Shown here: one piece after another, positions 15,209 through 50,652 of the stretch
Numbering within the stretch: the first letter of the stretch is position 1
Layout of the letters: each line of letters starts with the position of its first letter
From: Methanofollis ethanolicus
GTDB taxonomy: Archaea > Halobacteriota > Methanomicrobia > Methanomicrobiales > Methanofollaceae
Assembly: GCF_001571385.1 (NCBI RefSeq)
Contig: NZ_BCNW01000001.1
Location: 1,116,001-1,180,000 of the forward strand
Length of the DNA: 64,000 nt
Direction: 5' to 3'
Made by a program: the position numbers and the translations under genes
Notes under the pieces: model-generated
What the model saw: only the letters and a program-made list of their open reading frames with translations
Told to the model about the DNA's origin: nothing
Database searches by the model: none

Positions 15209-16207
15209 TCAGGCAGGGAGGGGCGCCGGCCATCCCTCATGCCCCTTCCCGAACTCTGCAACCATGAATGCCATGAACTCGCGGGCAAGGTCGGGGTGGG
15301 GGGCGGAGTTCGGGACAGTCGCCGCATACACGATGGGGGTCCCGACGCGGTCGCTTCCTATGGAGCCGAACCGCTGGAAGCCGAGTCTGACGACGACCGT
15401 ACGGTAATTATCCTGACATGCCGCAGACCCAAGGTCTATCTCAGGCGGCAGGGTGACGTACTTCAGGCCGTGCTCCTCCGCAACGCTCAGGTATTCGAAG
15501 GCATAGTCCACCCCGCCGGCGTCCAGGAGCGAGAGGAGGAAGATGCTGCCGTCGCGGATCCTGACCTTCCCGGTCTCCTGCTTGAGCACCTCGGGTAGGG
15601 TGATGGACGTGACGCCGTCCTTTTCCTCCACTGTCACATTTGGCCTGAGATGGTTCCCGAGGACGGCGTCGAAGATCTCGTCGTCCCCGTAGTATCTCTC
15701 TGCAAGAGTCGTCACCATCAGCGCCCTGTAGCCTGCGGCGTCAAGCATCGGGTTCGAGATCCCGACGACGACGTCGGGCCTCGACAGCACTTCATACCAG
15801 TTCTCTGAGGTGATCGCGTCGGCATACCTGCTCTGGTTCGTGAAAGCGATCACGACCCTGTTAGTGGCGAAGGGGGTGTACGTGTCGGTGTAATTCCCCT
15901 CCCCGCCCTCGACCGACCTGTACATCAGGTCAGGGATGAGTTCCTCATCCGCAACGACCACCAGGTCGATGTCGCGGTGGAGGTCGGTCACCTGCCTGAT
16001 GCACTGGATAGAGCCGTGCCCCTCGACCTGCACGTCCACACCAGGGTGGGATGCCTCAAACTCTGCCTCAATTTCTTCCATAGGAAGAAGAAGACTCCCT
16101 GCGGGGACGATCTTCAGGGTTGTCGGGGTATCGTCACCACCGATGCACCCGGTCGCAAGGACACACAATCCCACAAGAGCGAGGAACATGAGGGGGATGC
16201 CCCTCAT
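15209..16207 (-). CDS. Tungstate/molybdate-type ABC substrate-binding lipoprotein (WtpA/ModA-like), orphan
   Basis: 332 residues. The lipobox is VLATGCIGG (Cys ~21). The mature protein starts TLKIVPAGSLLLPMEEIEAE and continues HGSIQCIRQVTDLHRDIDLV, the ModA/WtpA signature (A/G-S-L near the N-terminus, G-S-x-x-x-x-R-Q, D-x-D-L). The second lobe has VVVGISNPMLDAAGYRAL. WtpA-type proteins bind tungstate or molybdate and normally sit beside wtpB and wtpC, but no permease or ATPase gene is present here. It is the last gene of the exported-protein operon, with ATG overlapping the preceding stop (ATGA, 16204-16207). Confidence 0.85.
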   Translation of the reverse strand: MRGIPLMFLALVGLCVLATGCIGGDDTPTTLKIVPAGSLLLPMEEIEAEFEASHPGVDVQVEGHGSIQCIRQVTDLHRDIDLVVVADEELIPDLMYRSVEGGEGNYTDTYTPFATNRVVIAFTNQSRYADAITSENWYEVLSRPDVVVGISNPMLDAAGYRALMVTTLAERYYGDDEIFDAVLGNHLRPNVTVEEKDGVTSITLPEVLKQETGKVRIRDGSIFLLSLLDAGGVDYAFEYLSVAEEHGLKYVTLPPEIDLGSAACQDNYRTVVVRLGFQRFGSIGSDRVGTPIVYAATVPNSAPHPDLAREFMAFMVAEFGKGHEGWPAPLPA

Positions 16208-16779
16208 GGGCGTTTCACCTCGATCCTATCCACCCACTTCACCCAGGCGCTCCCCTCGGTGATAGTGTCCGGTTCATCGGTGCCGACCACCATCCGCAGG
16301 GGACCGCCGTCTCCGTCGGGGATCGCCGTTCCGTTGAACTCATAGGCAAGGACCACAGTAAGAGCAGGAGAAGGTTTCTCTTTGAGGTTCTGATCTAAGG
16401 TCACAAAACCCTTTCCGGCCATCTGCTCGTCATCGAAGACCCAGTAGTAGCCGTCAGGTGCTGATATCCCTACCTGATCGCCGTCTCCAGACCCACCAAC
16501 GCGATCGAGCAGCGTTGCGAGGGTTACGCCCTTGACCGTGTACGGTCCGTACTTGATTCCGACCGTGGAGACCGCATAGCCATAGCCCTCCCAGGCAGGG
16601 AGTTCTTTGATCTCGGAGAAGGAGAGCACCTCCTCATTGGTGCCGTCAGAGATCGTGAGGTTCCAGGATATGTCCTCACCTACCGGACTGGCAGGGTTGG
16701 TAGTCCCGGTGCACCCGCAGGCGGCTGCAGCGCAGATCAGAGCGAAAACTGCCATCAAACGGACGAAACGAGTTTTCAT
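16204..16779 (-). CDS. Lipoprotein with sulfite-oxidase-fold (molybdopterin-binding-like) domain
   Basis: 191 residues from ATG 16779, which overlaps the preceding stop as ATGA. The lipobox is CAAAACGCTG. The single domain follows the oxidoreductase molybdopterin-binding pattern: LTISDGTNEEVLSFSEIKEL, GVTLATLLDRVG, GDQVGISAPDGY, VLAYEFNGTAIPDGDGGPLR, and the closing KWVDRIEV. The cysteine that binds Mo in true sulfite oxidases is missing here, so it is probably a non-enzymatic binding domain. It is next to a tungstate/molybdate-type binding protein, which makes the fold choice suggestive. Confidence 0.75.
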   Translation of the reverse strand: MKTRFVRLMAVFALICAAAACGCTGTTNPASPVGEDISWNLTISDGTNEEVLSFSEIKELPAWEGYGYAVSTVGIKYGPYTVKGVTLATLLDRVGGSGDGDQVGISAPDGYYWVFDDEQMAGKGFVTLDQNLKEKPSPALTVVLAYEFNGTAIPDGDGGPLRMVVGTDEPDTITEGSAWVKWVDRIEVKRP

Positions 16780-17627
16780 CCCCGCATCCTCCATGCAAAG
16801 CAGGCAACACCAAGTCCGGCCAGGAGTCCAAAGAGCGGGCCAGGGCTCTGAGTGGCCTGCGCGGTCGTCGGGACCTCTGGTGTCTCAATTGCAGCAGATC
16901 CCTGGAGTGACTTAACCGGAACATTCTTCGCTCCACTATACCCCCCCTCATAGACCCTGACCTCGTCGATCCATTTCACGGTATAGCCTGAAGTCGAAGG
17001 ATAGAGGTCGTTAAAGAGGTGGAGGCGCTCAGGCGGGAAACATTCGCGCATATCCTGGTTGCCAAAGACATGTTTGCCCTCCGGGTTGGTGGAGTTGTCG
17101 GCAAAGAGGACCAGGCGCATCCCAACATGATAGTCCGGCGGATAGCCGACGCCCTGACGCTCGCCAACAGCTGCATCTTCGCCATTGTACCAGCAGAGCC
17201 CTATCGGCCCCTGGCGCGGATCGGGTTCATAGACGTTCGTGTACCCGAACTCAATATGATACCCGTCACCTGCTTTGACCATCATCTCATCGTCGGGCTG
17301 CATCCCGCCGACCAGGCCGCAGAGGTCCTTGATGTCGGTACCCTTCACCGCACCGCGGTCCTTGAAGTTCGTGGTCTCATTCCTGTCCCACTGGGTCTCT
17401 TTGTCATCGGCAAAGACCGGGCCCTGGTGGTAGTAGTGGGTCGTGCCGTCGCCGAGGACGGGGAGGTTTGCCTCCATCCACAGGTAGTCAACGGTCGTCT
17501 CATTGAGCACGGTGGTGCCGTCGTCTGCAATCTTTACTATATGCACCGAGGTCGTCGGTGCGGCCTGCACCCCTGCGATACAGGCGCAGAGGAACAGGAG
17601 CAGAAATACACTCTTTGTTACATTCAT
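16776..17627 (-). CDS. Exported protein with 'NLPVxGDG' module and C-terminal membrane anchor
   Basis: 283 residues. The signal peptide is residues 1-22. The body is one copy of a module shared by four proteins here: SVHIVKIADDGTTVLNETTV, WMEANLPVLGDGTTHYY, DIKDLCGLVGGM, KHVFGNQDMRE and the closing VKWIDEVRVYEG. The second half parallels the sulfite-oxidase fold (GVPL.DLL..., DGY, ...KWI..I), so I think it is a degenerate relative, but this is inference. The C-terminus is a Thr-rich linker, QSPGP, a hydrophobic helix and a basic end: a PGF-CTERM-like sorting tail. Its stop overlaps the next start (ATGA), and the gap to the preceding gene is 4 nt. Confidence 0.75.
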   Translation of the reverse strand: MNVTKSVFLLLFLCACIAGVQAAPTTSVHIVKIADDGTTVLNETTVDYLWMEANLPVLGDGTTHYYHQGPVFADDKETQWDRNETTNFKDRGAVKGTDIKDLCGLVGGMQPDDEMMVKAGDGYHIEFGYTNVYEPDPRQGPIGLCWYNGEDAAVGERQGVGYPPDYHVGMRLVLFADNSTNPEGKHVFGNQDMRECFPPERLHLFNDLYPSTSGYTVKWIDEVRVYEGGYSGAKNVPVKSLQGSAAIETPEVPTTAQATQSPGPLFGLLAGLGVACFAWRMRG

Positions 17628-17631
17628 ACAA

Positions 17632-18870
17632 TCATCTTCCTTTTTTCAGATGCAGGGCGACCATACCAGCCGCCGCGCATGCACAGAAGGGAGAGAGAGG
17701 GGCCTGTGCAGCGTTCTCCCCTTCTGCCTTCGGCGTCATTTCAATTGTCTCGAAAGTGCTGTTCAGGGGGTAGAGGCTCACAACCTCCCTGTTGTCCTCT
17801 GAGATCCTGGCCACAGGCACCATGTCGACCGTCACCGTCTCTCCGTCCACACTGACCCGCAGGTACGCGAGGGTGTGGTCGAGGCCGTTTTCAAAACCCG
17901 GCGCCTTCTTCTTGGCAAGAGGAAAGAGTTCCTCGCCGCCGCACGGAATCACGAAGTACGGCGTGCCGTTGATATCATAGCGTTCATAGGCATGGATATG
18001 CCCGTTGAAGACCGCCGTTACGTTGTAGCGGTCGAAGAGGGGCGCCCATTCCCGCTGCAGGACGCGGTCGCCGCCCCAGTGGCGTTCATTGGACGAGTAG
18101 ACCGGGTGGTGGAAGGCGACGAAGATCCGGCCCGAAGACCGGGCGAGGTCGGCCTCCAGCCAGGCAGTCTCTTCGTCGATCCTTCCCTTCGCCCAGTCGT
18201 TCGAGTCCAGGACGACGACATGCGCGTCGCCCCAGTCAAAGGAGTACCACTCGGGGACGCCGAACGCGTCATAGTACGGCGTCCTGTTCCCCTCGTGGTT
18301 GCCGAGGGACGGCACCAGGGTGGTGTTCGCAAGCATCCCCCTCGCCGCCGCGAAGTACTCGTCCCATTCAGCGAGGTCATTCCCGAAGGTGACGAAGTCG
18401 CCGCAGTGGATGACAAAGGAGAGGTTTTCCTCCTCTGCGATCCTGTCGGCAACGAGTCTGTGCCTCTCCATCTGGGTGAAGAGGGGGACCTGTCCCCTCG
18501 TGTCGCTGTACACCGCGAAGGCGAAAGGCCCCTGACCTGCGGTCATGAACCGGCAGTCAGGGCCCCTTGCATCCCGTGCAGTGACGACATAATGATACAT
18601 CGTCCCGGCTGTGAGGTTCGTAAGCCGCACATGGTGGAGGGTCACACCAGAAGGTTCGGCAACGGTGTGGACGTACTCCCCGGCATTTTCAAACTCATCG
18701 GCAGTCGCATAGGAGACATTCCCGCTGGACGGCCCTGCGGTCTTCCAGGAGACGACGGCCGTCGTCTCGTCGGTACCGGTGACATACGGCCCCCAGAGAA
18801 AGGTGGCATTCCCGGCAGCAACGGCTGAGGGGATGATCAGGAGGAGGAGGAAAGTTCCTGCCCCTCTCAT
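17632..18870 (-). CDS. Exported purple-acid-phosphatase-like metallophosphoesterase
   Basis: 412 residues from ATG 18870 (ATGA overlap with the preceding stop). A signal peptide is followed by an Fn3-like N-terminal domain (residues ~25-115). The calcineurin-like fold then shows YSDTRG, VIHCGDFVTFGNDL, LGNHEGN, FHHPVYSS and NGHIHAYER, covering all metal-binding blocks. The C-terminus has SPFCACAAAGMVALHLKKGR, a hydrophobic anchor. Purple acid phosphatases hydrolyse phosphate esters outside the cell; a nucleotide or phosphosugar substrate is possible. It lies in the middle of the exported-protein operon. Confidence 0.88.
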   Translation of the reverse strand: MRGAGTFLLLLIIPSAVAAGNATFLWGPYVTGTDETTAVVSWKTAGPSSGNVSYATADEFENAGEYVHTVAEPSGVTLHHVRLTNLTAGTMYHYVVTARDARGPDCRFMTAGQGPFAFAVYSDTRGQVPLFTQMERHRLVADRIAEEENLSFVIHCGDFVTFGNDLAEWDEYFAAARGMLANTTLVPSLGNHEGNRTPYYDAFGVPEWYSFDWGDAHVVVLDSNDWAKGRIDEETAWLEADLARSSGRIFVAFHHPVYSSNERHWGGDRVLQREWAPLFDRYNVTAVFNGHIHAYERYDINGTPYFVIPCGGEELFPLAKKKAPGFENGLDHTLAYLRVSVDGETVTVDMVPVARISEDNREVVSLYPLNSTFETIEMTPKAEGENAAQAPLSPFCACAAAGMVALHLKKGR

Positions 18871-21800
18871 CTCCTCAACCTGACCTCGCACGTTGTCACC
18901 TCGTCGGGTCTGACCAGCACGTCATCGACTGTCCGTGAGTCAGAACGGCCGACGACCTTGACCGAGTACCTGCCGAGGTCCATGCCGGTGAAGAGGTGGG
19001 GCGTCACCTCGCCGGTGTTCTGGCCGTAGAGATAGATCTTCGCTCCTTCAGTCGTGCTGTTCACGTACAGGGAACCACTGGCATAGGACGCAAGCATGAA
19101 CTTCACGTCCACCTCATCACTCCCCTTCGGGACGAGGACCACATCTTCCTTCGGCAGGTAGCCCGGTTTGGTGAGCATGACTCTGTGGCGCCCGGGAGAG
19201 ACATTCTCAACGACGTACGGGGTCGCACGCCCGGTGTCAAAGCCGTCCACGAAAATCTCGGCGCCCTGGGGGGTAGAGTCCACCCTGAGGGCGGTCAGTC
19301 CCCCGGTCTCCGGTCGGAGTGTCTGGGTGCTCCCGTCTTCGACAAAGTCGGAGATGGGCACCGAGATATAGGAACTGTTCCTGCTGAATGCGACAAAGGA
19401 ACTCAGGCCGCCGAACTTTATCTTCGCAGGCACCTTCTTCCCCGTATAGTAACCGTTGACCGAACAAGGTTCGCCCTTGTATCCCGGGATGTCGACAGTG
19501 AGTGTCTTTTGCATCCCATGCTCGTTCCGGTCAAAGCGTACAGGGATGACCACGCCCGGAGAGACCCAGACCTCCTTCGTGTCGATTTCATAGGAGGCCT
19601 TCGCCTTCTTCACCTTCACGCGGTGAAGGCCTTCTTTGAGGCCGTTGACCACCTGCGGGGTCTGTGCATCGATCTTTTTGTTGTCGATGTAGATGTCTGC
19701 CCCGTCGTCGCTCGCCTCCACATAGATGCCACCGGAGCGGGAGTTCATCCCCTGAATAGCGGCAAGGGTGAGGCAGAGGGGGTCGACATGGAGATTTTGG
19801 TTGCAGGGATCGAGGGAGACGGCAACATCTGTGTCCTCGTCGAGGTCGAAGGAGGTCTCGTAGGGACGATAGTTCTCCAGTTCGATCCTGAGTGTGTGGA
19901 CTCCTGCCGGGAGGTTGGGGAGAGATGCCGGGGTGACCAGACCGGTGTAGTCACCGTCCAGGAAGACCTGCGCACCTGCGGGGTGGGTGATGACGGTGAC
20001 CGCGGCATGGGAGGCCGCCGGCGTCGCCACAGGTGTGGGGGTCAGGGTCGGGCCGCCGACGTCCTGTTCTGTCCCGACCGGCGCCGGGGTTTTTTCATTC
20101 TCCTCAATGCCGAACCACCCGGCGATCATCGCCCACAACCCGGAAAAGAAACCCGAAGAGGTTTCGGGCTCTGTCGGTTGCACAGATGTCTCTACTGTTA
20201 CGGGAGCAGTGGTGATTTCAGCTGTTGTAACCGTCTCTGTCGGCGGCACTGTCGCGGTCGTGATCGGCAGGGCCCGGACAGACATCCGGGTTGCGGCAAT
20301 GAGGACAAGCCTGTTCTCCATGTAGTCGCCAGGATCGCCGGTCGGGATACTTACGATCTCGACTTTGTTCCCGGCATCCCTGAGATAGGGCGTCGCATCG
20401 GCCCTGCAGATACTGACGGCGTCCTCCCCACCGGTGAGGAGGTTGGTCCACTCACCACCATTGAGGGCGACGCGGTTTGTAAACGTGTCATTCCCGGCCG
20501 CACCGGTGCTGACGACAGACAGAGCAACGACAGTCCGGTCGTCTCTCCCTATCGGGTCGGTGAAGTCGGCGGTGGTGCAGGCGTCGTCCTCGGTGACCCC
20601 CCATGCGGGGTCTGCCTGGATGACATCGGCACCCTCGGCGATCCACCAGGAGGTGTGGTTGCCCGATGTGTCGGCGACCGGTGCGACGAGGACGCCGCCG
20701 GAGAGGGTGACCAAACCCTCTTTCTGACCTGCATTCCTGACATGGAGGGTATGGTTCGCCGGCGACAGCGTCTTCAGGGCATAGCACCAGGTCTCGACGG
20801 TAGGGTTGCGGCCGTCAGCGTCGTCGGCATAGTACGCATTGGCAGCGAGTCTCGTGTTCCCGAGGGAGACCTCAAGGTCGGTACCGTCGTCAGACGGACT
20901 GCCCGTGTTGTTCGTCCCGAAGAGGTAGAGGCGCACACCAGAGGTCTTCCCCATGCCGGTTGTGTTCAGGAAGAGAGTGCAGGAATCACCACTCTTCAGG
21001 GTGCAGAAACCTCCATCAGAGGGGATGACCTGCACCGTGCCGTTCACTGTGCCATGGTCGGCGACCGTGAGGTCAGAACCCTTGAATCCGTGGGGCCTGC
21101 TCACGCTGCTGTCAGAACCACCTGACCCGCCGGATCCTCCCTGAGAGGGGGAAAGCTGGCTGTGGATGGTGATCTGGTTGACCATCTGGACTGAAACACC
21201 ACTCGCAGAGGGATACTGACCATTGTAGTAGTACCAATACTCTTCATCCCAGGACTCGTGCATGTCCCAGTTGCCCCAGACATGCATCCCCTGCTCATTC
21301 GTTTCAGGGGTAAGGAAGTAGAGGCGCATGCCTTCCCGGAAGTTCTCATTCACGTAGCCGGTGTCCTTGCCATGGTACCACGCGATCACTATTGGTCCCT
21401 GCCTGGGGTTGGGGGTGTAGATGTACTCCGCCGGCCATGTCTTCGTCAGTCCGTCCGATGCCTTGATGGTTACCATATCGGTCGGTTCGGCACCGCCGAC
21501 AAGGTTGCAGAGGTCCTTCACGTCTGTGCCCATGAACTGACCGTGGTCCTTATAGACCAGGTTCACGTCTTCGGTCGGGTTCCAGCCGTCATAGGTCTCG
21601 CCCGGGTGAACTTCATCCCATGCCCCTTCAAAGATCGGCCCCTGCGTGTAATACATCGTCTCTCCGTCCCCCTGGACAGGGAGATTGTCCCGCATCCACT
21701 GCCAGTCGACCGTTTTTTCGGCGAGGACGGTGGTGTCGTCAGAGGCGATTTTGGTGATCTTCAGTTCTGTCGTCGCAATGGCCGACACCGGGATTGTCAT

Positions 21801-21884
21801 TGCCTCAACAACCAGAAGAACGACAAAAACAAAGAGAAATGTCTGATGTCGTTCAGATAGGGTCGTCTTCATATGTATCATCAT
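18867..21884 (-). CDS. Large exported multidomain protein: NLPVxGDG module, DUF3344-like domain, PEGA repeats
   Basis: 1005 residues. A signal segment is near residues 15-35. Domains: NLPVxGDG module (~40-242, KDLCNLVGG and HVWGNWDMHE); Gly/Ser linker; a DUF3344-like beta domain (~268-535; GTVNGTVQVI, VRLYLFGTNN, HTLHVRNAGQKEGLVTLSGG, ENRLVLIAA); a Thr/Pro linker with a short amphipathic patch (FFSGLWAMIAGWFGI); then about four PEGA domains (~627-1005), for example GAQVFLDGDYTGLVTP, GAEIFVDGFDTGRATP and GAKIYLYGQNTGEVTP. It lacks the usual C-terminal hydrophobic tail. The start at 21884 overlaps the preceding stop; ATG 21872 is an alternative. PEGA domains are typical of archaeal surface proteins. 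Confidence 0.8.
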   Translation of the reverse strand: MMIHMKTTLSERHQTFLFVFVVLLVVEAMTIPVSAIATTELKITKIASDDTTVLAEKTVDWQWMRDNLPVQGDGETMYYTQGPIFEGAWDEVHPGETYDGWNPTEDVNLVYKDHGQFMGTDVKDLCNLVGGAEPTDMVTIKASDGLTKTWPAEYIYTPNPRQGPIVIAWYHGKDTGYVNENFREGMRLYFLTPETNEQGMHVWGNWDMHESWDEEYWYYYNGQYPSASGVSVQMVNQITIHSQLSPSQGGSGGSGGSDSSVSRPHGFKGSDLTVADHGTVNGTVQVIPSDGGFCTLKSGDSCTLFLNTTGMGKTSGVRLYLFGTNNTGSPSDDGTDLEVSLGNTRLAANAYYADDADGRNPTVETWCYALKTLSPANHTLHVRNAGQKEGLVTLSGGVLVAPVADTSGNHTSWWIAEGADVIQADPAWGVTEDDACTTADFTDPIGRDDRTVVALSVVSTGAAGNDTFTNRVALNGGEWTNLLTGGEDAVSICRADATPYLRDAGNKVEIVSIPTGDPGDYMENRLVLIAATRMSVRALPITTATVPPTETVTTAEITTAPVTVETSVQPTEPETSSGFFSGLWAMIAGWFGIEENEKTPAPVGTEQDVGGPTLTPTPVATPAASHAAVTVITHPAGAQVFLDGDYTGLVTPASLPNLPAGVHTLRIELENYRPYETSFDLDEDTDVAVSLDPCNQNLHVDPLCLTLAAIQGMNSRSGGIYVEASDDGADIYIDNKKIDAQTPQVVNGLKEGLHRVKVKKAKASYEIDTKEVWVSPGVVIPVRFDRNEHGMQKTLTVDIPGYKGEPCSVNGYYTGKKVPAKIKFGGLSSFVAFSRNSSYISVPISDFVEDGSTQTLRPETGGLTALRVDSTPQGAEIFVDGFDTGRATPYVVENVSPGRHRVMLTKPGYLPKEDVVLVPKGSDEVDVKFMLASYASGSLYVNSTTEGAKIYLYGQNTGEVTPHLFTGMDLGRYSVKVVGRSDSRTVDDVLVRPDEVTTCEVRLRR

Positions 21885-22672
21885 CTCCGGAGAAGGATGC
21901 CTGCGACGAGAGCGGCAAGAACCGCGGCAATTCCAAGGGGGGCCTGTGGAGTCGGCGTTTCGGGGGTGTTTTCTCCTCCATTTGTCTCGTGGCCGGTATA
22001 GATCTCAAGATCGCTCACCTGCTTGACCGAAAGACCGCTCGTCGACGGCCATGTGCCGCTGAAGAAGTGCCACTCGCCCTCGGGCAGGGTCTCTTTCATG
22101 TCGGTGTCCCCGAAGACGTGCCTACCCCAGGGATTTGTCGAGGCGTCGGCAAAGAAGATCAGGCGCATGCCGTCATAATACTCCGGGACATAGCCCGATC
22201 CCTGCGGGTCACCGGTGACCGAGTCCTCACCGACATACCATGCAAGGCCCATCGTCCCCTTCCTTGGATTCTCGGCATAGACAGTTGCATGGGAGAAGTT
22301 CTTGTAAAACCCGTCCTCTGCCTTCACTTTGAGGGTGTCGCCTGACCCCATACCGCCGACGAGGCCGCAGAGATCCCTGACGGCCGTTCCTTTCACGGCG
22401 CCATAGTCCCTGCTCTCCACATTTTGGTACTCGGCCGGATCCCAGAGGTCTGACTCGTTGAAGGTCGGGCCCTGGTGGTAGTAATGGGTCGTCCCGTCAC
22501 CAAGGACGGGGAGGTTCGTCTCCATCCAGATATAGTTCACCGTCTTCTCGTTGAGGATGGTCGTGCCGTCTGGGGCATACCTGACGATATGGATGTCGCT
22601 CGTCGCCGTCGTCGGCAGGACTACAAGGTAAATGGCGAGAAGGGCGATCAGAACAAAGTTATGGTTTCTCAT
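21881..22672 (-). CDS. Exported protein with 'NLPVxGDG' module and C-terminal anchor
   Basis: 263 residues from ATG 22672, preceded by a strong GGAAGGTGATG site. The signal peptide is FVLIALLAIYLVVLPTTA. It is a close paralogue of the protein at 16776: IHIVRYAPDGTTILNEKTV, WMETNLPVLGDGTTHYYHQG, VRDLCGLVGGMGSGD, RHVFGDTDMKE, VKQVSDLEIYTG. The C-terminal tail is TPQAPLGIAAVLAALVAGIL with RR, an anchor or sorting tail. It is 35 nt from the preceding giant gene and its stop overlaps the next start. Confidence 0.75.
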   Translation of the reverse strand: MRNHNFVLIALLAIYLVVLPTTATSDIHIVRYAPDGTTILNEKTVNYIWMETNLPVLGDGTTHYYHQGPTFNESDLWDPAEYQNVESRDYGAVKGTAVRDLCGLVGGMGSGDTLKVKAEDGFYKNFSHATVYAENPRKGTMGLAWYVGEDSVTGDPQGSGYVPEYYDGMRLIFFADASTNPWGRHVFGDTDMKETLPEGEWHFFSGTWPSTSGLSVKQVSDLEIYTGHETNGGENTPETPTPQAPLGIAAVLAALVAGILLRR

Positions 22673-22707
22673 TTTTTCATCACCTTCCAAGGCAAAAAAA
22701 GAGAATA

Positions 22708-25700
22708 TCATCTCCTCCTGAGGAGGAGAAGGGCGCCGAAGGCGATGAAGGGCAGGGCCCAGAAGACCGGCGACTGTTGCGGGGTCGTGGGAGTGGGTGT
22801 CGCTGCCGTTGTCTCATTGATCGCCGGTGTCGGGGCCGTGACCTCTCCCACCGGTGCCTGCACATCGTCGGGGGCCACTGCCGAACCTTTCTCTGCCGTG
22901 ATGGCAAAGAAGGAGAAGCCCGGGGACTCGGCCGAATAATATGCCTTGCCTTCCTTCTCCTCGATAAAGGTCGTCTGCAGACGGATCCACTCTCCATTCA
23001 CGTGCCGCAGGAGGGCCACGTCGCCGGCCGAAACGCCCTGGGCCTTCAGCCACGCGGCTTCAACGGCAAACTCGATTGTAACTCCTTCGATCGCCAAAGG
23101 GTCGGTCTTGTAAAGTGTGACCTCCTGGATCTCGTAGACCGCACCCTCTGGTGCCGGGGCGCCCTTCGGCAGGCTTGCCTTCTTCACCGTAAAGAGGAAG
23201 TGTTCGATCCGGTCATAGGCGCTGACCGTGATCGTTGAGAACGCGGTCTCGGTCACGGAGAAGGACTTCGATTCACCTGCCGGGATGGAGCCGGAAACAG
23301 CTGAGACCGCGGAGGTGCTGCCGCTAGAGGATGAGTGGCTGTACGAGGGCGACGGAGTCGGGGCTGGGGCCGCAACGCCGCCGACCGCGAAGTAACAAAA
23401 TCCTGGTGTGGTTGCACTAAAGTACGCCCTTCCATTCTCCTCTTTGATAAATGTTGTTGGGAGACCCTGCCATGCACCATTCGTGTACCGCAGCAGCCTC
23501 ACATCGGTGACCGCCATCCTGTGGGAGTTCAGCCAGGTGAGAGGGAGGTCAAAGGCGATGACTGCCTCGTCGATGGTGTTTTCAGGGGCAGGGTAGACGA
23601 TATGGAGGTACTGGAAGATGTTCTCAGCAGGTGTGTCGATGTAGTTCGGGAGTTCATCGGGGACGTCAATGGCCAGTTCTCCATCCCTGACGTCTCCGGC
23701 GGCCTTGATGGTTATTTTTGAGACTGCACCCTTCTCAAGATCCAGTGCCTTCTCGCCGCCAGCACTGATGTTCCCGAGGGAGACGATGTTACCCTGCAGG
23801 TTCGGCGGGATGAAGGAGACCTTGACGACACCCTTGATGGTGTCCATACCGCTGACATTCTCGCCCACAAGGCGGAGGGGCCAGTTCTCGTCGTCACCGG
23901 CAATATGCATGCCGTTCAGAGAGTTGGCAAGGATGTACTTGTCGCTGTACATCGCGTCGCGGCTGTCTATGATAGTCTCCGAACCGTCTTTACCGACGAT
24001 ATGGATGGCATAGCCTTCGGCCGCGAGGGTGTCATTGAATGACTTACCTGTATGGAAGTTCTCGTCATCGACATAGCCGAGGAGGAACCAGAGAGGCATG
24101 CCTGACCATTCTCTGCCCTTGCTGTCTGTGTAGGACTTCTCGTGGTTGGCGCCCATGGTGCAGGCAAGACCGCTCTCGAAGTAGCCCTTGCTGATGGTCT
24201 TGTCGATTGCTCCGTCGAGCTGGAGGTTCCAGGTGGGTTCTGCTACGTCGTAGATCCTGATCTCAGAGATATATTTGGCCGAGAGCCCGGCGCAGGACGG
24301 GAGACCTGAGTTGTAGTGCCAGTATTTCTCGTCGATGCACTCGTGCATGTTCCACTGCCCGAAGACGTGGTCGTCGGGCGCAAAAAAGAGCCGGTAGCCG
24401 TCGGCATAGTCGGGGACATAGCCCTGCCGTCCGGTGTACCACACCAGGACAGCCTCGCCCTGCTGCTCCTCGGGGGCATAGATGTTGCCGTAATGGAGGG
24501 ACGTCTCCCATCCGTCAGGGGCTGCGAAGGTGATCTCAGTGTCAGGGCCCATGCCGCCGGCGAGGTTGCAGAGGTCACGCACGGAGGTTCCCTTGATCTG
24601 CTCATCGATCTTCAAACCACCTGGATAGGTCTCGGCCTGATCCCAGGGGTCCGCGGGCGGGAAGTTCAGTCCCTCGAAGTAGTAGTGCGTCTCGCCGTCA
24701 CCGTACACCGGGAATTTTTCTTCCATGTACCTGTAGTCGATGGTCTTCTCGCTGAGGACCGTCGTGCGGTCGGCAGCGTACTTGACGATCCGCACTGAAG
24801 GGATCTCGGTCGGTTTCTGGAACGCGGTCAGTTCGATGCTTTCGATACTTGCCACACTCTGCGACCCTTCGGTCAGCGCAGAACCGACCAGCCTGACAGG
24901 GTAACCATTTTCGTTGGTCAGAAGGGTTCCGTTCAGTTTGTTGGCGATGATGAAGTCGTTGTTCTGGGAAACGATTTTGCTGCTGAACTCCTTGCTGTAG
25001 TCTCCTGACCCGGTGACGATCACCGTGTAGCCCTGTGCAGCAAGTTTGCTGTTAAATGCGCCAGACCCGTGGATGGTATAGTCGTCAACCCAGCCGCAAA
25101 GGCTCCAGAGCGGGATACCCGACCATTCGCGGTTCTTGTCGTCGGTCCAGGTGACGGTGTGGTGCGAACATGCTGCGGCCGCCTCGAACTCGCTCTGTGT
25201 GATGGTGTCGGTGATCTCACCCTTCAGGGTGAGCGTCCATTCACCGGGCTTCGGTCCTCCCGGCAGGCCGACGAGTGAGATTTCACTGATTGTTCCGACT
25301 TTCTGTTTCCCGGATGTGACGTTCTTTCCGACAAGTTTGAGCGGGAAGTCCCCTTCTGCAAGAGGCTGCCCGTTGAGGGTGTTGGCCACGATATAGTCGG
25401 AACTCTTTGCGACATTTGCACTGGCGAAGGTGGCGTTGAAACCGTCAGATGCACTCACCCTCACGGTATAGCCGTCTGCGGCGAGCTGGGTGTTGAATGC
25501 GCCAGACCCGTGGATGGTGTGGTCGTCGACCCATCCGGTGAGGTACCAGAGGGGCATGCCCTTCCACTCACCGGCCTCGTCTGTGTAGGTGACGCCGTGG
25601 CACCGCACAGATTCTTCGAAGTACGCCTGGGTGAAGGTGTCTTCGATGTCGCCTTTCAGGGTGAGGGTCCAGCCTTCGGAGGGTTCGGGGAGGCCGACGA

Positions 25701-28119
25701 GTTCGATCGCGCCGATGTTCCCGATCTTTTTGCCCATCGTGACATCAGAACCCACCATCTGGAGCGGCCAGCAGGGTTTGCCTCCTGAGGTCAGTTCTGG
25801 GAGAGGCTGCCCGTTGAGGGTGTTGGCCACGATATAGTTGTTGTTCCTGGCAATGGCTGCGCTCGGGAAGTTGATGTCGTACGGATGTGTCAGGTTCCGG
25901 TCGGTGACCTTCACCGAGTACCCTTCGGCTGCCAGTTCGTTGTTGAATGTGTAGTGGCTGCCGGTATCCTCGTCGTCGACCGCTCCCACGAGGTACCAGA
26001 GGGGCACGCCCTTCCATTCGCCGTCTCCGTCAGTGTAGGTGGCGACATGGCCGCAGTCCACCGCATCTTCAAACTGTGCCTTGGTGAACGAGACGGTGGT
26101 CTTGCCCTTCAGGGTGAGAGCCCAGTCACCGGGTGCGGATGCGACCTTAACGGTGGCCTGTATGATTGCCAGGGCGTTCTCCCGTGTCGTCGAGCCGTCA
26201 GGACCATACAGGAAGAGTACGACGTCACCATTCTGGAGAGGCTGGTCGGCACTGTTATAGGCGGCTGAACGGGCTTCACCGTTCACAGAGCAGGCCCAGG
26301 CCTCCTTGTAGGTGTCATTCACCTTGTTGTAGCGATAGGTGCCGATGTCATCAAGGAGCAACTGGCCATATTGCCACTTCTTATTGGTGAAGTTATAGAG
26401 GAAGCCTTTTTCCTGTGCGGCGGCATCAAGGGCGCCGAGAGGGGTGAGGGCCGGAATGCTGTGCGTGGTGCCCTGGCTTGCGGTCACGGTGACGTTGCCC
26501 GCGCCGAGCGTAACTTCGCCATTGTAGACGATGTCAGCATTTGTGAGGCGTGCCGTGATAAGTACCGCTGCTTCAGCGTTCTCCGGAGTGGTCGCACCTT
26601 TTGGGCCGTAGTAAAAGTTCACCCTGTCGCCGTCGACGAGGACACGTTTGTTCAGGCCGTCGGTGCTCGGCTTGCCGTAATCATCAAGGGCCACATCGTT
26701 CACGTAGCAGGTCCAGCTCTTCTGGCTCTTGATGAATGGGTAAGAATCGATGTCATCGAGCATCAGGATGCCAGAATCGATCCACTTCCTGTCGGTGACC
26801 TTATAGGTGAAGCTCTCAGCCTTTGCAACGGTGTCGAGGGCGCCAAGTGGAGTCCGGTATGGGATCTGGTAGGAAGAACCCTGACTTGAAGTCACAGTGG
26901 CTTCCCCTTTGGGGAGGAAAACATCTCCATCATAGAGGAGATCCGCACCTGTAGGCGCTGTCGTCACCGTCACATCCGCGGTACCCTCGACAGTCTCGTT
27001 TGTTGCGGTGACCGTCGTCGTGCCCGCCGCGTGTGCAGTGAAGTATCCGGTCTCGTTCACGGTCCCGACAGTTTCATTGCTGCTCGACCACTCGAAGGTG
27101 AGGCCGGTCATCGGCCGGTCATTCTGGTCGAGGGCAGCGGCGGTGAACTGCTGCTTTTCGTTCACCTTCAGGTCGGCGACAGCGGGAGTAACATTGATCG
27201 AGGTCAGAATTGGCTTGATGCCGGTCACAGCATAACCAGACGCACCACCCGCACTCAGGGGGTTAGTCCAGCGGACGCCCTGACCCTGGTTCGAGGAAAC
27301 AGTATAGACATAGGCGTTGAAGGCTGCAAAGGTCTCCAGATTCTCGAATGAGTACTCGACCTTAATAGCACCTTTGTCGTTGATCGCCTGTCCGGAGAAG
27401 TCAGGCTGTGAAAGCGTATTCTTTCCGAGGATACCTGCGTTCAGGTCGATGAACATGATTGAGAAGGTGTTCCCGGTATCGGTCATGTCCTGTCTGTCGA
27501 AGATCGGGTAATTGACCGCCGGACAGGGCCTCCAGATCTGTGGTCCATAAAGGAAATCATCCTTTGTGAACGTCTCGTCCAGTGCTTCAGGCACATAGGT
27601 GATGTTCTCGAATGCCGGGAAATTGCCCTTCTGAACCGGTGTCCACTGATAACCGCTCGCCTTGATGTTGACTCTGAAGTCATCGGGAATGGTGCCGTTG
27701 ACTGCCAGCATCAGGATGCCATTGTCGTCCCAGCCGCGGCCACCTGTGTCGTTGATATAAAAGACACCAGACTGGTCGTTGCTGAATACAACTTGGCTGC
27801 TGAAGTTCAAAGCATCAGTCGTAATATGAAGTGCGTTCAGACCCTGTGTGCCACTCTGAGTCGGGCTGAAGAAATGATAGGTGTTGTTGCCGTAATCGTT
27901 GAAACGGGCAGCACCATCATTTGAAACGTGTAGTATAACATTACTATTCGAAGGAATCACCTTGTAGGTGCTGGAATCAGCATCCGAACCAGCGGTCTCA
28001 CTCAGTTCCAGCGGTTCGGCCACCGCCGGGGCAATACAGAAAGCCGAAAGCAGGAGGAGAAGGAGGGCCAACCCCCATTTCCACTGCATGCGGCCTAAAT
28101 CAGTCGTACATATTGTCAT
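22708..28119 (-). CDS. Giant surface protein: A/B module, Big_2, two DUF4430-like, four sulfite-oxidase-fold repeats, PGF-pre-PGF
   Basis: 1803 residues. A signal peptide is within the first 35 residues (ATG at 28089 is an alternative start). Domain order: surface module A/B (~70-300; GLNALHIT, FLYGPQIWRP, MFIDLNAG); Big_2 (~302-386); two DUF4430/transcobalamin-like domains (~387-657; TPLGALD twice, YYGPKG, LYGPDG); three sulfite-oxidase-fold repeats (~664-1099); one NLPVxGDG module (~1107-1292); a fourth sulfite-oxidase-fold repeat (~1295-1436); two PGF-pre-PGF domains (~1450-1583, 1610-1742); Thr/Pro linker; QQSPVFW plus a hydrophobic helix and RRR. First gene of the seven-gene exported operon. 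Likely anchored at the cell surface; ligand unknown. Confidence 0.8.
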   Translation of the reverse strand: MTICTTDLGRMQWKWGLALLLLLLSAFCIAPAVAEPLELSETAGSDADSSTYKVIPSNSNVILHVSNDGAARFNDYGNNTYHFFSPTQSGTQGLNALHITTDALNFSSQVVFSNDQSGVFYINDTGGRGWDDNGILMLAVNGTIPDDFRVNIKASGYQWTPVQKGNFPAFENITYVPEALDETFTKDDFLYGPQIWRPCPAVNYPIFDRQDMTDTGNTFSIMFIDLNAGILGKNTLSQPDFSGQAINDKGAIKVEYSFENLETFAAFNAYVYTVSSNQGQGVRWTNPLSAGGASGYAVTGIKPILTSINVTPAVADLKVNEKQQFTAAALDQNDRPMTGLTFEWSSSNETVGTVNETGYFTAHAAGTTTVTATNETVEGTADVTVTTAPTGADLLYDGDVFLPKGEATVTSSQGSSYQIPYRTPLGALDTVAKAESFTYKVTDRKWIDSGILMLDDIDSYPFIKSQKSWTCYVNDVALDDYGKPSTDGLNKRVLVDGDRVNFYYGPKGATTPENAEAAVLITARLTNADIVYNGEVTLGAGNVTVTASQGTTHSIPALTPLGALDAAAQEKGFLYNFTNKKWQYGQLLLDDIGTYRYNKVNDTYKEAWACSVNGEARSAAYNSADQPLQNGDVVLFLYGPDGSTTRENALAIIQATVKVASAPGDWALTLKGKTTVSFTKAQFEDAVDCGHVATYTDGDGEWKGVPLWYLVGAVDDEDTGSHYTFNNELAAEGYSVKVTDRNLTHPYDINFPSAAIARNNNYIVANTLNGQPLPELTSGGKPCWPLQMVGSDVTMGKKIGNIGAIELVGLPEPSEGWTLTLKGDIEDTFTQAYFEESVRCHGVTYTDEAGEWKGMPLWYLTGWVDDHTIHGSGAFNTQLAADGYTVRVSASDGFNATFASANVAKSSDYIVANTLNGQPLAEGDFPLKLVGKNVTSGKQKVGTISEISLVGLPGGPKPGEWTLTLKGEITDTITQSEFEAAAACSHHTVTWTDDKNREWSGIPLWSLCGWVDDYTIHGSGAFNSKLAAQGYTVIVTGSGDYSKEFSSKIVSQNNDFIIANKLNGTLLTNENGYPVRLVGSALTEGSQSVASIESIELTAFQKPTEIPSVRIVKYAADRTTVLSEKTIDYRYMEEKFPVYGDGETHYYFEGLNFPPADPWDQAETYPGGLKIDEQIKGTSVRDLCNLAGGMGPDTEITFAAPDGWETSLHYGNIYAPEEQQGEAVLVWYTGRQGYVPDYADGYRLFFAPDDHVFGQWNMHECIDEKYWHYNSGLPSCAGLSAKYISEIRIYDVAEPTWNLQLDGAIDKTISKGYFESGLACTMGANHEKSYTDSKGREWSGMPLWFLLGYVDDENFHTGKSFNDTLAAEGYAIHIVGKDGSETIIDSRDAMYSDKYILANSLNGMHIAGDDENWPLRLVGENVSGMDTIKGVVKVSFIPPNLQGNIVSLGNISAGGEKALDLEKGAVSKITIKAAGDVRDGELAIDVPDELPNYIDTPAENIFQYLHIVYPAPENTIDEAVIAFDLPLTWLNSHRMAVTDVRLLRYTNGAWQGLPTTFIKEENGRAYFSATTPGFCYFAVGGVAAPAPTPSPSYSHSSSSGSTSAVSAVSGSIPAGESKSFSVTETAFSTITVSAYDRIEHFLFTVKKASLPKGAPAPEGAVYEIQEVTLYKTDPLAIEGVTIEFAVEAAWLKAQGVSAGDVALLRHVNGEWIRLQTTFIEEKEGKAYYSAESPGFSFFAITAEKGSAVAPDDVQAPVGEVTAPTPAINETTAATPTPTTPQQSPVFWALPFIAFGALLLLRRR

Positions 28120-28331
28120 GTTCTTCAGTCCTCAGACTTTCATTTCTAGAATTCCCGTGGGGAACGGGGGAGTTAAACAAACTTTTTTAACATTTTGTGG
28201 ATATTCAGGGCTACTTTTTGCAAGACAACGATATTAATATTCTGAATTGCCTGAAGAGTTAATTGTGTGTGGTTAACGCCGCCGCGGAGGGCCGAAGAGG
28301 AGACGACAGAAAAAAAGAGGGGAGTATCCTG

Positions 28332-30572
28332 TCAGTGCCGCCGTAGCAACATGAGGAGAGAGAAGGCGGCGACAAGAGGGAACCAGCCTGCCGGCGACTT
28401 CTGAGGTGCGGTGGTCGCACTCGCTACCGGTGTAGTCTTCGTCTCTGAAACAATTGCTCCATTTCCAGCCTTCCCGCCGATCACAAAGAGCGAGAGCCTC
28501 TCAGCCTGTGCCGTGAACTCGACCGACCCATCTTTCTCCTCTCCGGCAACAGTCGGGAAGGCCTGCCATTCTCCTCCGACCCGGCGCATCAGCACGATAT
28601 CCTCTGCCTTCAGACCATGGTCGGCGATCCATGCAGAGGGGACACGGAAGGTGAGGGCAAGAAATGTGGGTTCGGCCTTCGCACCCTCGAGTCTGAGCTT
28701 CAGGTAGCGGTAGACCTCACCCTCGGGCGGCGCACCTCCGCCGGCCGTCTCCGCATCCTCCACCGTCACCAGGAAGGGGGAACGCTGTTCGGGGAGGGTC
28801 ACCGCAACCTGGGATACCACAGGGTTGTCAATGAGGAATGCCTTCGTCATTGTCGGGACAGTTCCCGCAGCTACCCCGGCATCGGCACTGACAGGTGTGC
28901 CGCGGGTTGTGACCAGGACGGCAAGACGGTTCACCAGGACCCCGCCGTCCCCGACATTTTTCTGCGCACGGACGGTGACGGTGTTCTCGCGGGGGAGGAG
29001 CGAGCGGGTGGCATCGAGGTCGGCCAGCAGCATGGAACCGTTCCGACCGAAGGCACCGGGCCACTCCCGATCATTGAGGCCGACCCTGCCGCCGCCGTCG
29101 GTCCATGCACCGGGCCCGGTGCCGACGACGTACAGTCTCGCCGCACCGACGCAGTCGAGGTCGAGATGCTCGTCGAGGATCATCTTCGTCACGACGTCTT
29201 CTTCATAGATCCCGTTATCGTCGTCGATCGCGACGGCATCGCACCCTTCGGCGACCTGCCAGATGACCTGGGAGAGGGCCGGATCCTCGCACACGACAAG
29301 GAGGGCACCGCCGTCAAGGGTGCAGACAGCACCCTGCGTACCTGTGTTTGTGACCTCGATGGAGAGGGCGCCCTCAGGGAGACGGTCCATGTCGAAGGAA
29401 TAGGTGGCGGCGACCGGGGCGTCCTTCCCGCCCTCGCGGTCGGTGACTGTGCGGTCGGGAGAGACCGACCGCCCATTGAGCGTGAATCTCAGGGCAGGGT
29501 CAATCCCTATGTCATCCTGTTTCGACCCGTCCACGAAGAGGTAGAGGGTCGCCTTTTTCACGGTTTCCGTACCGGCCGGAGGAACAAGGGATAGTGTCGC
29601 ACTCCCTCCCCCGTCAAGGAGGGCCGGGGCACTGTTGGTCGTTACAAGGGCCACATGACCATTCACCTCCCCGCTTTCCTGCTTGGTGAACTCAGATCCA
29701 GATAATCCGGAAGAGGCACCTGTATCTGAACCCTCACCGCTGCCCGGTGCCACGTCGCCTCCCTGCGGCGCCGTCCCGATGACCGCGTAGCCGCTCGACC
29801 CCTCACCGACAATCCGGTTTGTCCAGGAGATGCCCTGACCCTGGTTTGACTGGTTACACCAACCATAAGAATTGAAAGCTGCAAAGGTTCCGAAGTTCTC
29901 GAACTCGTACTCGATCTTCACGGCACCCATATCCTTCAGGCCATCGATCTGGGAATTTTTGCCAATATTACCGACATTGAGGTCGATATAGACGGTATGG
30001 AAGGGGTTCGAACCGTCGGAGACGTCCTGACCATAGTAGATGGGATATGCCCCGGGTAGATTGTTCCCGGCAGGCTTCCAGGTCTGTGGGCTGTACTTGA
30101 AGTTTTCCTTCGTGATCGTTCCCTCATAGGCCCCGTCGACGTACTCGATCTGATCCGCTGTGGGCGGCATGTTCAACGCCGGTGTCGGGGTCCACCTGTA
30201 TCCGCTCGCCCTGATATGGAGGGCGAAGTCGTCAGGAACGGCGCCATTGACAGCGACCATCAGGATCATATCGTCAAAAAAGCCGCGCCCGCCTGTTTCT
30301 GAGAGATAGAAGACACCAGACTGTTCTTCAGTTGTCGTTACCTGCCCATAGGGCTCGGACTCGGGATCGGTTGTGACATGGAGGGCGTTGAGTCCGCCGC
30401 CTTCGAACTTGAAGAACTTGGTCATCCCGTCTGAGAGGATGAGATCGAAATTGCTGGTGCCAGGCATCGTGATCCCGCCGACGTCGTCGGCAACCGCGGG
30501 GGCGATGCAGACGGCAGCCAGAAGCATGGCCAGAGCCAGAAACACATGTCGTGATTTTATTCCCTGATTCAT
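28332..30572 (-). CDS. Surface protein: A/B module, DUF3344-like domain, PGF-pre-PGF and PGF-CTERM-like tail
   Basis: 746 residues with AAAGGAGATTATC before the ATG. The signal peptide ends near residue 28 (AVCIAPAVA). Module A/B occupies ~35-265 (GLNALHVTTDP, GVFYLSETGGRGF, FKYSPQTWKP, VYIDLNVGNIG, NSYGWCNQSNQGQGISW). A DUF3344-like domain follows (~290-565; ESGEVNGHVAL, KKATLYLFVDG, ENTVTVRAQ). A PGF-pre-PGF domain covers ~590-705. The tail is QKSPAGWFPLVAAFSLLMLL with RRH. It is separated by 212 nt from the next gene, so it has its own promoter. Unknown ligand. Confidence 0.78.
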   Translation of the reverse strand: MNQGIKSRHVFLALAMLLAAVCIAPAVADDVGGITMPGTSNFDLILSDGMTKFFKFEGGGLNALHVTTDPESEPYGQVTTTEEQSGVFYLSETGGRGFFDDMILMVAVNGAVPDDFALHIRASGYRWTPTPALNMPPTADQIEYVDGAYEGTITKENFKYSPQTWKPAGNNLPGAYPIYYGQDVSDGSNPFHTVYIDLNVGNIGKNSQIDGLKDMGAVKIEYEFENFGTFAAFNSYGWCNQSNQGQGISWTNRIVGEGSSGYAVIGTAPQGGDVAPGSGEGSDTGASSGLSGSEFTKQESGEVNGHVALVTTNSAPALLDGGGSATLSLVPPAGTETVKKATLYLFVDGSKQDDIGIDPALRFTLNGRSVSPDRTVTDREGGKDAPVAATYSFDMDRLPEGALSIEVTNTGTQGAVCTLDGGALLVVCEDPALSQVIWQVAEGCDAVAIDDDNGIYEEDVVTKMILDEHLDLDCVGAARLYVVGTGPGAWTDGGGRVGLNDREWPGAFGRNGSMLLADLDATRSLLPRENTVTVRAQKNVGDGGVLVNRLAVLVTTRGTPVSADAGVAAGTVPTMTKAFLIDNPVVSQVAVTLPEQRSPFLVTVEDAETAGGGAPPEGEVYRYLKLRLEGAKAEPTFLALTFRVPSAWIADHGLKAEDIVLMRRVGGEWQAFPTVAGEEKDGSVEFTAQAERLSLFVIGGKAGNGAIVSETKTTPVASATTAPQKSPAGWFPLVAAFSLLMLLRRH

Positions 30573-36844: not shown

Positions 36845-37076
36845 ACCTGTGATTCCTCCCGTTTGAGGATAAAATATCGAATAATATACCGACTCAAGGT
36901 AATAGATCCTATTTAATTGCCCCAAATAGGTAATGATTGTACTATCGGGAAACAACAGAATAAATATCTTATTATTTTCAGACAAGTATATCAAATTTAG
37001 TTAACATGCGATGCGGTTGACGGACGCACCGACCGATGGAGAGAGATAAAAAAAGAGGAATTCGGGATTTACACGC

Positions 37077-43990: not shown

Positions 43991-44788
43991 ATGGAGTTCC
44001 GGACGCGCGTCATCGCCGGTTTCGCCGTTCTGGCCGTGATCGCTGTCCTTGCGGTGGCAGTCCAGATCATGGCGGAGTCCCTCTGCATGACCGATGACGA
44101 GACACCGCTCCCGATCATCTCGTCAGAGATGACCTTCACGCGGTCCGACTTCCTGTACGGCCCCGCGGAATACAGGCCGTACGCCCATCCCCTCTCCCTG
44201 AACACCCTGACAGGCGACCCCGATGGCCAGTGGTACCTCATGTACGTCATGCTGAACGAAACACCGCAGGGGGGCAACCCCTTCCTCTTCAAAGTACAGT
44301 CTGTCGCCGTCGACTACGAGTTCACCGACCTTGCCGGCACGGCCGCCGTCTCCGTCTACGGGGCGCGGCCCTTCGGTGGGGCGGCATGGACGAACAGGCA
44401 GGACGGTTATGGCTCATGCGGGTATTTTGTCCAGGGCACGGCCGACGTGGGCGAGGACATGCCCTGGACAGTCCCCCTCAAGGCTGGCAACCCGGCTATG
44501 GTCCGCCTCTCCAACACCCACGGCCTCGGCCCCGACGAGATCCCGACAGGCACCGTTACCTTCGTGTTCGAGCGGGACGGGAGCGGGCTTGACGCTCTCC
44601 ATATCACGACCGACCCGGCCCAGAGGAAGGGCGGAGTCACGCGCGACGCCCCCGAGACCGGGCGGTTCTACCTCACACACACGGGCGGGAGCGCCGTCGG
44701 GTCGGTCTACCTCCTCATCGCGGTGGACCGCCCCCAGCCCGACACTTTCTCCCTGAAACTCACGACACAGTACGCGGAGGTGGCATGA
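43991..44788 (+). CDS. Exported protein with surface module in swapped B-A order, upstream of ECF S component
   Basis: 265 residues. An N-terminal membrane helix or signal (VIAGFAVLAVIAVLAVAVQI) is followed first by the B half of the surface module (SDFLYGPAEYRP, YLMYVMLNETPQGGNPFLF, AVDYEFTDLAGTAAVSVYG, AAWTNRQDGYGSCGYFVQG) and then by the A half (VTFVFERDGSGLDALHITTD, GRFYLTHTGGSAVGSVYLLI). All other copies in this window have A before B, so this is a circular permutation. It overlaps the S-component start by ATGA. A ligand-capturing partner of the transporter is the simplest inference. Confidence 0.75.
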   Translation: MEFRTRVIAGFAVLAVIAVLAVAVQIMAESLCMTDDETPLPIISSEMTFTRSDFLYGPAEYRPYAHPLSLNTLTGDPDGQWYLMYVMLNETPQGGNPFLFKVQSVAVDYEFTDLAGTAAVSVYGARPFGGAAWTNRQDGYGSCGYFVQGTADVGEDMPWTVPLKAGNPAMVRLSNTHGLGPDEIPTGTVTFVFERDGSGLDALHITTDPAQRKGGVTRDAPETGRFYLTHTGGSAVGSVYLLIAVDRPQPDTFSLKLTTQYAEVA

Positions 44789-50450: not shown

Positions 50451-50652
50451 CCCTCTTTCATGGGCCTGCATCAGATATATAGTGCGTTGGTTTTAATACA
50501 AATTGCCTGAGGTTGTCCGGGACACGGTCAGACTTCCTGAGGTCATCCCAGAACACTCGTTCATTCCTCTTATCTCTGCATGGGGAATCGGGAGAAAATC
50601 CCCTGTTCTGATCGATGCCCTTCTCGACTCCTTGCAGTCGTCACTCGAAAAT

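Follow-up and report, generated by a model that had tools for sequence, protein, structure and literature searches.

Genes and domains of the locus

We analysed a window of 64,000 nt (C1:1116001-1180000) from the 2.71-Mb genome of the archaeon Methanofollis ethanolicus, and within it a set of seven minus-strand genes, g1 to g7, that runs from position 28119 to 15209 and ends in a gene for a tungstate/molybdate-type substrate-binding protein (SBP) related to WtpA. All seven open reading frames (ORFs) are present and closely packed, with junction sizes that vary with the start codon chosen. A 4-nt ATGA overlap joins g1 to g2, which are instead 35 nt apart with the alternative g2 start, ATG 22672; g2 and g3 overlap by 4 nt, g3 and g4 by 4 nt with the likely g4 start at ATG 18870 (25 nt with GTG 18891), g5 and g6 by 4 nt with the likely g6 start at ATG 16779 (19 nt with the start at 16794), and g6 and g7 by 4 nt, while g4 and g5 are separated by 4 nt. 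The sole long gap, 212 nt at 28120..28331, lies 5' of g1 and is a likely, putative promoter region; the seven genes would presumably be co-transcribed. An Rfam scan of the window gave no match above the gathering score, so no riboswitch or RNA control was recognised, and a tRNA search of the window found none. By inspection, N-terminal hydrophobic signals are present in all seven proteins, which are predicted to be exported, and lipoboxes are seen in g6 and g7. A first-pass annotation, made from the letters alone, had described seven tightly spaced genes on one strand whose products are all exported; both statements agree with these results, as do its domain assignments: a WtpA-like fold in g7, sulfite-oxidase-type domains in g6 and g1, the NLPVxGDG module, here denoted NLPV, in g1, g2, g3 and g5, and a phosphatase-like enzyme in g4.

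The first gene, g1 (22708..28119), encodes a multi-module surface protein of 1803 residues. An N-terminal WKP-type region and a Big_2 domain are followed by two DUF4430-like domains (about 26155-26949), three sulfite-oxidase (SUOX)/Oxidored_molyb repeats (about 24799-26154), an NLPV module (about 24160-24798), a fourth SUOX-like repeat (about 23770-24159) and a C-terminal PGF-pre-PGF domain with a hydrophobic anchor. In a Pfam scan, Oxidored_molyb (PF00174) was matched by g6 and g1. The SUOX repeats span residues about 656-1450 of g1; a Cys found in almost all repeats of this type (127 of 140) lies within the pattern CxH...D...WxGxPLW...VDD, possibly a metal- or oxyanion-binding motif. Because this Cys precedes the strand rather than standing at its end, as judged by inspection, it probably does not occupy the position that ligates the molybdenum cofactor (Moco). 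The DUF4430 (PF14478) match of g1, 17.5 bits at E=0.0057, does not reach the cut-off of 23.8; among DUF4430-like domains, a Pfam match at E<=0.1 was obtained for 20 of 41, the strongest at 8e-6. We take DUF4430 to be a transcobalamin-like domain.

Two of the proteins consist of a single NLPV module, namely g2 (21881..22711; 276 residues, with a signal sequence and a C-terminal hydrophobic segment) and g5 (16776..17627; 283 residues), and neither has a Pfam or NCBIfam match even at E<=1. Between them lie g3 (18867..21884; 1005 residues), in which an NLPV module (about 21150-21770) is combined with DUF3344 and four PEGA domains, and g4 (17632..18891; 419 residues), an exported metallophosphoesterase of the calcineurin-like/purple-acid-phosphatase-like kind. 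Pfam recognises in g4 both the Metallophos domain and a purple-acid-phosphatase N-domain, and the residues of its metal-ligand motifs D, GD, GNH, HH and HxH are conserved in 90% or more of 67 homologues. Residues 210-306 of g4 match solved purple acid phosphatases (6ofd, 2qfp), and the motifs that ligate metal are retained, but GDF stands in place of GDxxY, which we take to be the motif of that family. The last two genes encode a SUOX-fold lipoprotein of 196 residues, g6 (16204..16794), and the SBP lipoprotein of 332 residues, g7 (15209..16207).

Folds of the NLPV module and the SUOX lipoprotein

An AlphaFold model of the NLPV module, built from an alignment of 95 modules, had a mean predicted local distance difference test (pLDDT) score of 97.0 and a predicted template modelling score of 0.92. 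Structural comparison with VIA-align, whose lists re-examine Foldseek hits so that families not listed may still match, gave PruR as the best match (7kom; Z 12.2, 2.9 Å over 132 residues, 8% identity) and chicken sulfite oxidase as the next (Z 11.0, 4.3 Å over 144 residues), with the first clearly unrelated rows near Z 6. By sequence alone, comparison with solved structures yielded insignificant matches only (best E 0.28), and aligning PruR by way of a g1 SUOX repeat gave no usable match. The NLPV module is predicted from its model to adopt the SUOX fold and to be closest to PruR, which the available part of PMC13259868 describes as a periplasmic pterin-binding protein devoid of the Moco cysteine. 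PruR (7kom, 7kp2, 7kos, 7rkb) is itself a small exported SUOX-fold protein; in contrast to it, the NLPV modules stand in an archaeal surface context, and no partner of the DcpA type was seen with the NLPV cluster.

For the g6 lipoprotein, modelled from 66 sequences (pLDDT 96.0), the comparison gave Z 15.9 with both SoxC and chicken sulfite oxidase and Z 15.3 with PruR; clearly unrelated rows fall below Z 5. Thus g6 and the g1 repeats share PF00174, and g6 the predicted fold, with the Moco domains of sulfite oxidase, SoxC and SorT. Unlike these enzymes, however, the g6 domain contains no Cys at all: a profile alignment to SorT places Val opposite the Moco cysteine, and in 8 of 66 homologues a Cys stands one column off that position. 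The Pfam scan of g6 found PF00174 and did not find the Mo dimerisation domain. A role of g6 as a catalytic sulfite oxidase is ruled out by the absence of the Moco cysteine and of the dimerisation domain.

Several proteins unite these modules in one chain. Fusions of NLPV with a phosphoesterase account for 13 of 75 distinct phosphoesterase proteins, and five fusions join NLPV to a domain of the SUOX-lipoprotein type; such arrangements support the view that the fused partners may work on one ligand. The NLPV profile has seven matches in the window genome, four of them inside the seven-gene set, and NLPV modules also occur at loci that lack WtpA (L037-L039). The module may have wider uses, because NLPV proteins are also found at such WtpA-free loci. 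A second NLPV locus of the window genome (L039 6013-10572, at about 1.07 Mb of C1) encodes a 1519-residue fusion of NLPV and phosphoesterase beside further NLPV/SUOX proteins, again without WtpA.

Conservation of the cluster and its relation to WtpBC

The product of g7 scores 338.9 bits against the WtpA equivalog TIGR03730 (cut-off 242.75) and aligns end to end with solved WtpA proteins (2onr, 3cij, 3k6u, 3cfz), but with 304.5 bits it falls short of the 355 required by PRK04168, another curated model. It belongs to a clade of 91 sequences (support 0.806), denoted WtpA2, that stands apart from canonical WtpA and from the solved proteins of A. fulgidus and M. acetivorans. The window genome has two WtpA genes. 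The better-scoring one (C1:1208397) is followed by wtpB and wtpC and lies, as a canonical wtpABC, about 77 kb from g7; g7 is a second, orphan copy that converges with an isocitrate/isopropylmalate-dehydrogenase-type gene. The earlier naming of the final gene as a tungstate/molybdate-type binding protein is right, with the reservation that neither a permease nor an ATPase gene adjoins g7 at the window locus.

The cluster recurs widely. Genes of relatives were called with a greedy ORF script and home-made profiles, so that some may be missed or mis-started; several counts come from draft genomes, and each count excludes loci whose contigs are too short for the length threshold stated with it. 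Within the genus, the seven-gene order is intact in all nine Methanofollis loci with WtpA2 that were fetched, which contradicts the possibility, raised in the first-pass annotation, that it is limited to this strain; WtpA2 was not found in 2 of the 11 other Methanofollis genomes searched (G003, and G057, which is 88% complete). Across the order Methanomicrobiales, 68 WtpA2 sequences come from 21 genus groups. Of 65 loci with 700 bp or more of sequence upstream of WtpA2, 64 have the SUOX lipoprotein as the immediately preceding gene, in the same orientation. With 1.6 kb or more available upstream, 62 of 63 loci place an NLPV protein two or three genes before WtpA2, and with 6 kb or more, 38 of 55 have a phosphoesterase no more than six genes away. 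Within the order, 80 of 199 genomes and 24 of 38 genera have a match to the NLPV profile; in the phylum as a whole it is 48 of 392 genomes sampled. Among the matches listed for these 199 genomes, WtpA2, delimited here by match length together with a tree, occurs in 68, all of which have NLPV, while 12 have NLPV but no WtpA2 that was counted and 119 neither (Fisher p about 3e-41, a value that ignores relatedness); one of the 12 (G023) contains a broken WtpA2. A chance neighbourhood of a WtpA paralogue was rejected in view of this conservation. Genes downstream of WtpA2 in Methanoculleus (447, 436 and 144 residues) were considered as members and rejected, since they encode AMP-binding enzymes and an ACT protein, which are unrelated.

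Outside the order, a wider contig scan gave 69 loci, many of them duplicates of loci in the genome set, and these were not added to the counts for the order. WtpA2 was found at 15 archaeal loci, in Methanophagales, Argoarchaeum, ANME-2c, other Methanosarcinales and Methanosaeta, and on four contigs binned as bacteria (Omnitrophota, Bacillota, Anaerolineales and Dehalococcoidia). An NLPV protein lies upstream in all 19 of these loci and the SUOX lipoprotein in 18, the miss being L132. The bacterial labels may be binning errors, that of L099 in particular. Contigs L128, L130, L132 and L136, assigned by binning to Dehalococcoidia, Bacillota and Anaerolineales, contain the cluster or its start, with wtpB and wtpC after wtpA in L130, L132 and L136, and reflect either gene transfer or binning error. 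Judged by these sequences, the core of NLPV protein (g5), SUOX lipoprotein (g6) and WtpA2 (g7) recurs in many other methanogens, in archaea that oxidise methane or alkanes and, it seems, in some bacteria. Two variants of the SBP were also noted: at L027 (891-2840) a 649-residue protein in which a PBP_like_2 domain precedes a WtpA-type SBP domain lies upstream of an NLPV-SUOX-WtpA2-B-C cluster, and in other genomes of the same family (Methanoregulaceae) WtpA matches fall in frames of 638-673 residues.

Several observations connect WtpA2 with the WtpBC importer. Of 63 loci with 2.2 kb or more of downstream sequence, 12 have wtpB and wtpC immediately after WtpA2. A WtpB is encoded no more than six genes from WtpA2 in 21 of 68 loci, these 21 coming from ten genera in four families; in 2 of the 21 (L012, L054) it belongs to an adjacent canonical wtpABC. 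In 20 genomes, exactly one WtpA was present at E<=1e-30 among the matches listed, and it is WtpA2. A WtpB search of these 20 and the window genome gave a match of at least 49% identity in 18 of the 20, and weaker permeases only in G131 and G159 (87% and 80% complete). The WtpB gene is near the cluster in 12 of the 18 and elsewhere in six. Five of the six distant loci were fetched (G004, G010, G099, G022 and G150, all Methanoculleus-type) and contain wtpB-wtpC, and no WtpA was found beside wtpBC in these five genomes even at a 25-bit threshold. In G022, the SBP-less wtpBC is flanked by TupA- and TupB-like genes (below NCBIfam cut-offs), a gene for an ATP-binding cassette (ABC) ATPase and MOT1 (PF16983, 178 bits against 30), that is, by relatives of the tungstate/molybdate transporters TupABC and MOT1, whose SBP and permease families differ from WtpA2 and WtpBC. 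In Methanocorpusculum parvum, WtpA2 is the only WtpA, and wtpBC is convergent to it. Because wtpBC adjoins WtpA2 in several genera, sole-WtpA2 genomes keep WtpB and five Methanoculleus-type genomes have wtpBC without an SBP, WtpA2 most likely serves WtpBC, and the cluster would therefore be a surface system for acquiring tungstate or molybdate.

Proposed function and alternatives

We propose that this seven-gene set specifies a surface system by which the cell acquires tungsten, molybdenum or both, a reading to which we assign a probability of about 0.6. The seven exported proteins probably reside at the cell surface and supply an importer of tungstate/molybdate. WtpA2, tethered to the membrane as a lipoprotein, would collect the oxyanion and hand it to WtpBC, encoded elsewhere in the window genome, with the SUOX lipoprotein g6 tethered beside it. 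At the cell wall or within it, the presumably cofactor-less SUOX/PruR-fold proteins (g6, g2 and g5, and the multi-module g1 and g3) may capture or present a tungsten- or molybdenum-containing ligand, with the anchored NLPV and multi-module proteins working further out than g6 and WtpA2; the exported phosphoesterase g4 could process the ligand or its phosphate-like competitors. Of the ligands suggested in the first-pass annotation, an oxyanion gains support from the distinct WtpA clade, from wtpBC nearby in several genera and from the 20 genomes in which WtpA2 is the sole WtpA, and a pterin gains from the predicted SUOX fold of the NLPV module, which that annotation had left unassigned, with PruR as its best match. 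The NLPV-phosphoesterase fusions lend a phosphorylated ligand weak support, and a corrinoid is weakly suggested by the resemblance to DUF4430 alone.

Several points weigh against this proposal. The first concerns the binding site of WtpA2. We take Asp153 and Glu218 (A. fulgidus numbering, with an offset that is the authors' own) to be the carboxylate ligands of solved WtpA; in WtpA2 the Asp equivalent is kept in 91 of 91 sequences, whereas the Glu equivalent is Ser in all 91. Since canonical WtpA proteins of the order have Ser there too, including the wtpABC-encoded SBP of the window genome, the replacement is by itself no argument against tungstate; it would, however, rule out the octahedral Asp-plus-Glu site of the solved proteins. 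Because the Glu ligand is replaced, we suggest that WtpA2 works like a WtpA, as a separate clade, rather than being a standard WtpA; it differs further from WtpABC in nearly always following a SUOX lipoprotein and an NLPV protein. Second, no wtpBC lies beside WtpA2 in the window genome or in any of the 10 Methanofollis, 18 Methanoculleus and 12 f2 loci counted. Third, a phosphoesterase is absent within six genes of WtpA2 in 17 of the 55 loci with enough sequence. Fourth, we know of no gene of the cluster that acts on tungsten.

The most serious alternative is salvage of extracellular tungsto- or molybdopterin, in which SUOX/PruR-fold modules would bind pterin-type cofactors from dead cells, the phosphoesterase would hydrolyse the phosphate or nucleotide, and the freed oxyanion would pass to WtpA2 and WtpBC. 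The structural matches of the NLPV module and of g6 to PruR and to sulfite oxidases, the binding of pterins by PruR in the periplasm (PMC13259868, available part), the fusions of NLPV with phosphoesterase and SUOX-lipoprotein-type domains and the downstream link to WtpBC all fit such a route. A fold match, however, says nothing on the ligand; the PruR site is truncated, is thought too small and probably cannot hold Moco, according to the same part of PMC13259868; no dithiolene-breaking enzyme is recognisable in the cluster; and a precedent for extracellular cofactor salvage was not found in the literature searched, which mostly lacked subscription papers. We consider salvage unlikely and rank plain surface-assisted oxyanion acquisition highest. 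Were salvage real, it would be a dedicated extracellular pathway in which the cofactor is caught by catalytically dead sulfite-oxidase folds, repeated along surface proteins, and opened by an exported phosphoesterase, after which a specialised WtpA relays the metal to WtpBC; that such a pathway is common to methanogens, to archaea of the anaerobic methanotrophic (ANME) and alkane-oxidising kinds and, it seems, to some bacteria is a tentative idea.

Less probable still is that these are structural or adhesive surface proteins, of the S-layer-like, PEGA and PGF-pre-PGF kinds, that merely adjoin a WtpA paralogue. The general surface-protein domains of g1 and g3 and the NLPV modules at WtpA-free loci agree with this view, but the triad of NLPV protein, SUOX lipoprotein and WtpA2 spans the families of the order, other archaea and the bacteria-labelled contigs, far beyond chance, and among the matches listed no WtpA2 occurs without NLPV (68 of 68). 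A surface device that captures corrinoids or other tetrapyrroles, as the sub-cut-off DUF4430-like domains of g1 and an energy-coupling factor (ECF) transporter in the window (44785-47535) might suggest, is very improbable, given that the conserved transport link is to WtpBC rather than to BtuCD or ECF genes and that the core triad lacks DUF4430. Equally hard to credit is a sensor of tungsten, molybdenum or pterins, comparable to PruR in proteobacteria, which the PruR-like fold and the missing adjacent permease in the window genome would allow, but for which no kinase or cyclase partner is seen in the conserved cluster and which sits poorly with WtpA2 being the only WtpA in 20 genomes (among the matches listed).

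The first step of CO2 reduction in hydrogenotrophic methanogens depends on tungsten or molybdenum enzymes. An acquisition system of the kind proposed bears on how archaea without an outer membrane catch these scarce metals; it would connect the Wtp importer with 'molybdopterin-binding' surface proteins, which are widespread, account for methanogens that apparently have WtpBC without an adjoining WtpA, broaden the range of the SUOX/PruR fold without the metal-ligating cysteine by adding tandem arrays in surface proteins of archaea, and give specific testable proteins in culturable Methanofollis, Methanoculleus and Methanocorpusculum. Tungsten can be limiting for biogas methanogens and favours Methanoculleus in digesters, and tungsten incorporation with strong growth promotion is cited for M. 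parvum (all in the available part of PMC8772805). A description of this cluster was not found in the literature searched; PMC6147048, in its accessible part, contains none, and a paper on WtpA and oxidoreductase molybdopterin binding concerns Thaumarchaeota rather than this cluster, as far as its accessible part goes.

Upstream of the putative promoter region, a minus-strand gene (28332..30572) encodes a surface protein with WKP-type, DUF3344 and PGF-pre-PGF regions. The same type of protein precedes g1 in six other Methanofollis loci (L003-L007, L036), and its membership of the system is uncertain. Another minus-strand gene near the seven-gene set (30713-36994) encodes a 2093-residue surface protein with a PQQ-type beta-propeller, a NosD-like beta-helix and Big_2 domains. 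Farther on, a plus-strand group (43991-47535) comprises a WKP-type surface protein (P0011), an ABC_cobalt-type membrane protein, a double ECF ATPase and a CbiQ-type protein; by eye, P0011 resembles the N-terminal part of g1, so that an ECF importer is accompanied by the same kind of surface protein. Convergent with these genes are three nitrogenase-like genes on the minus strand (47530-50471; Oxidored_nitro, NifE-like and CfbC-NifH-like), which score under the NifD, NifK and NifE cut-offs, with the last of them over the cut-off for CfbC.

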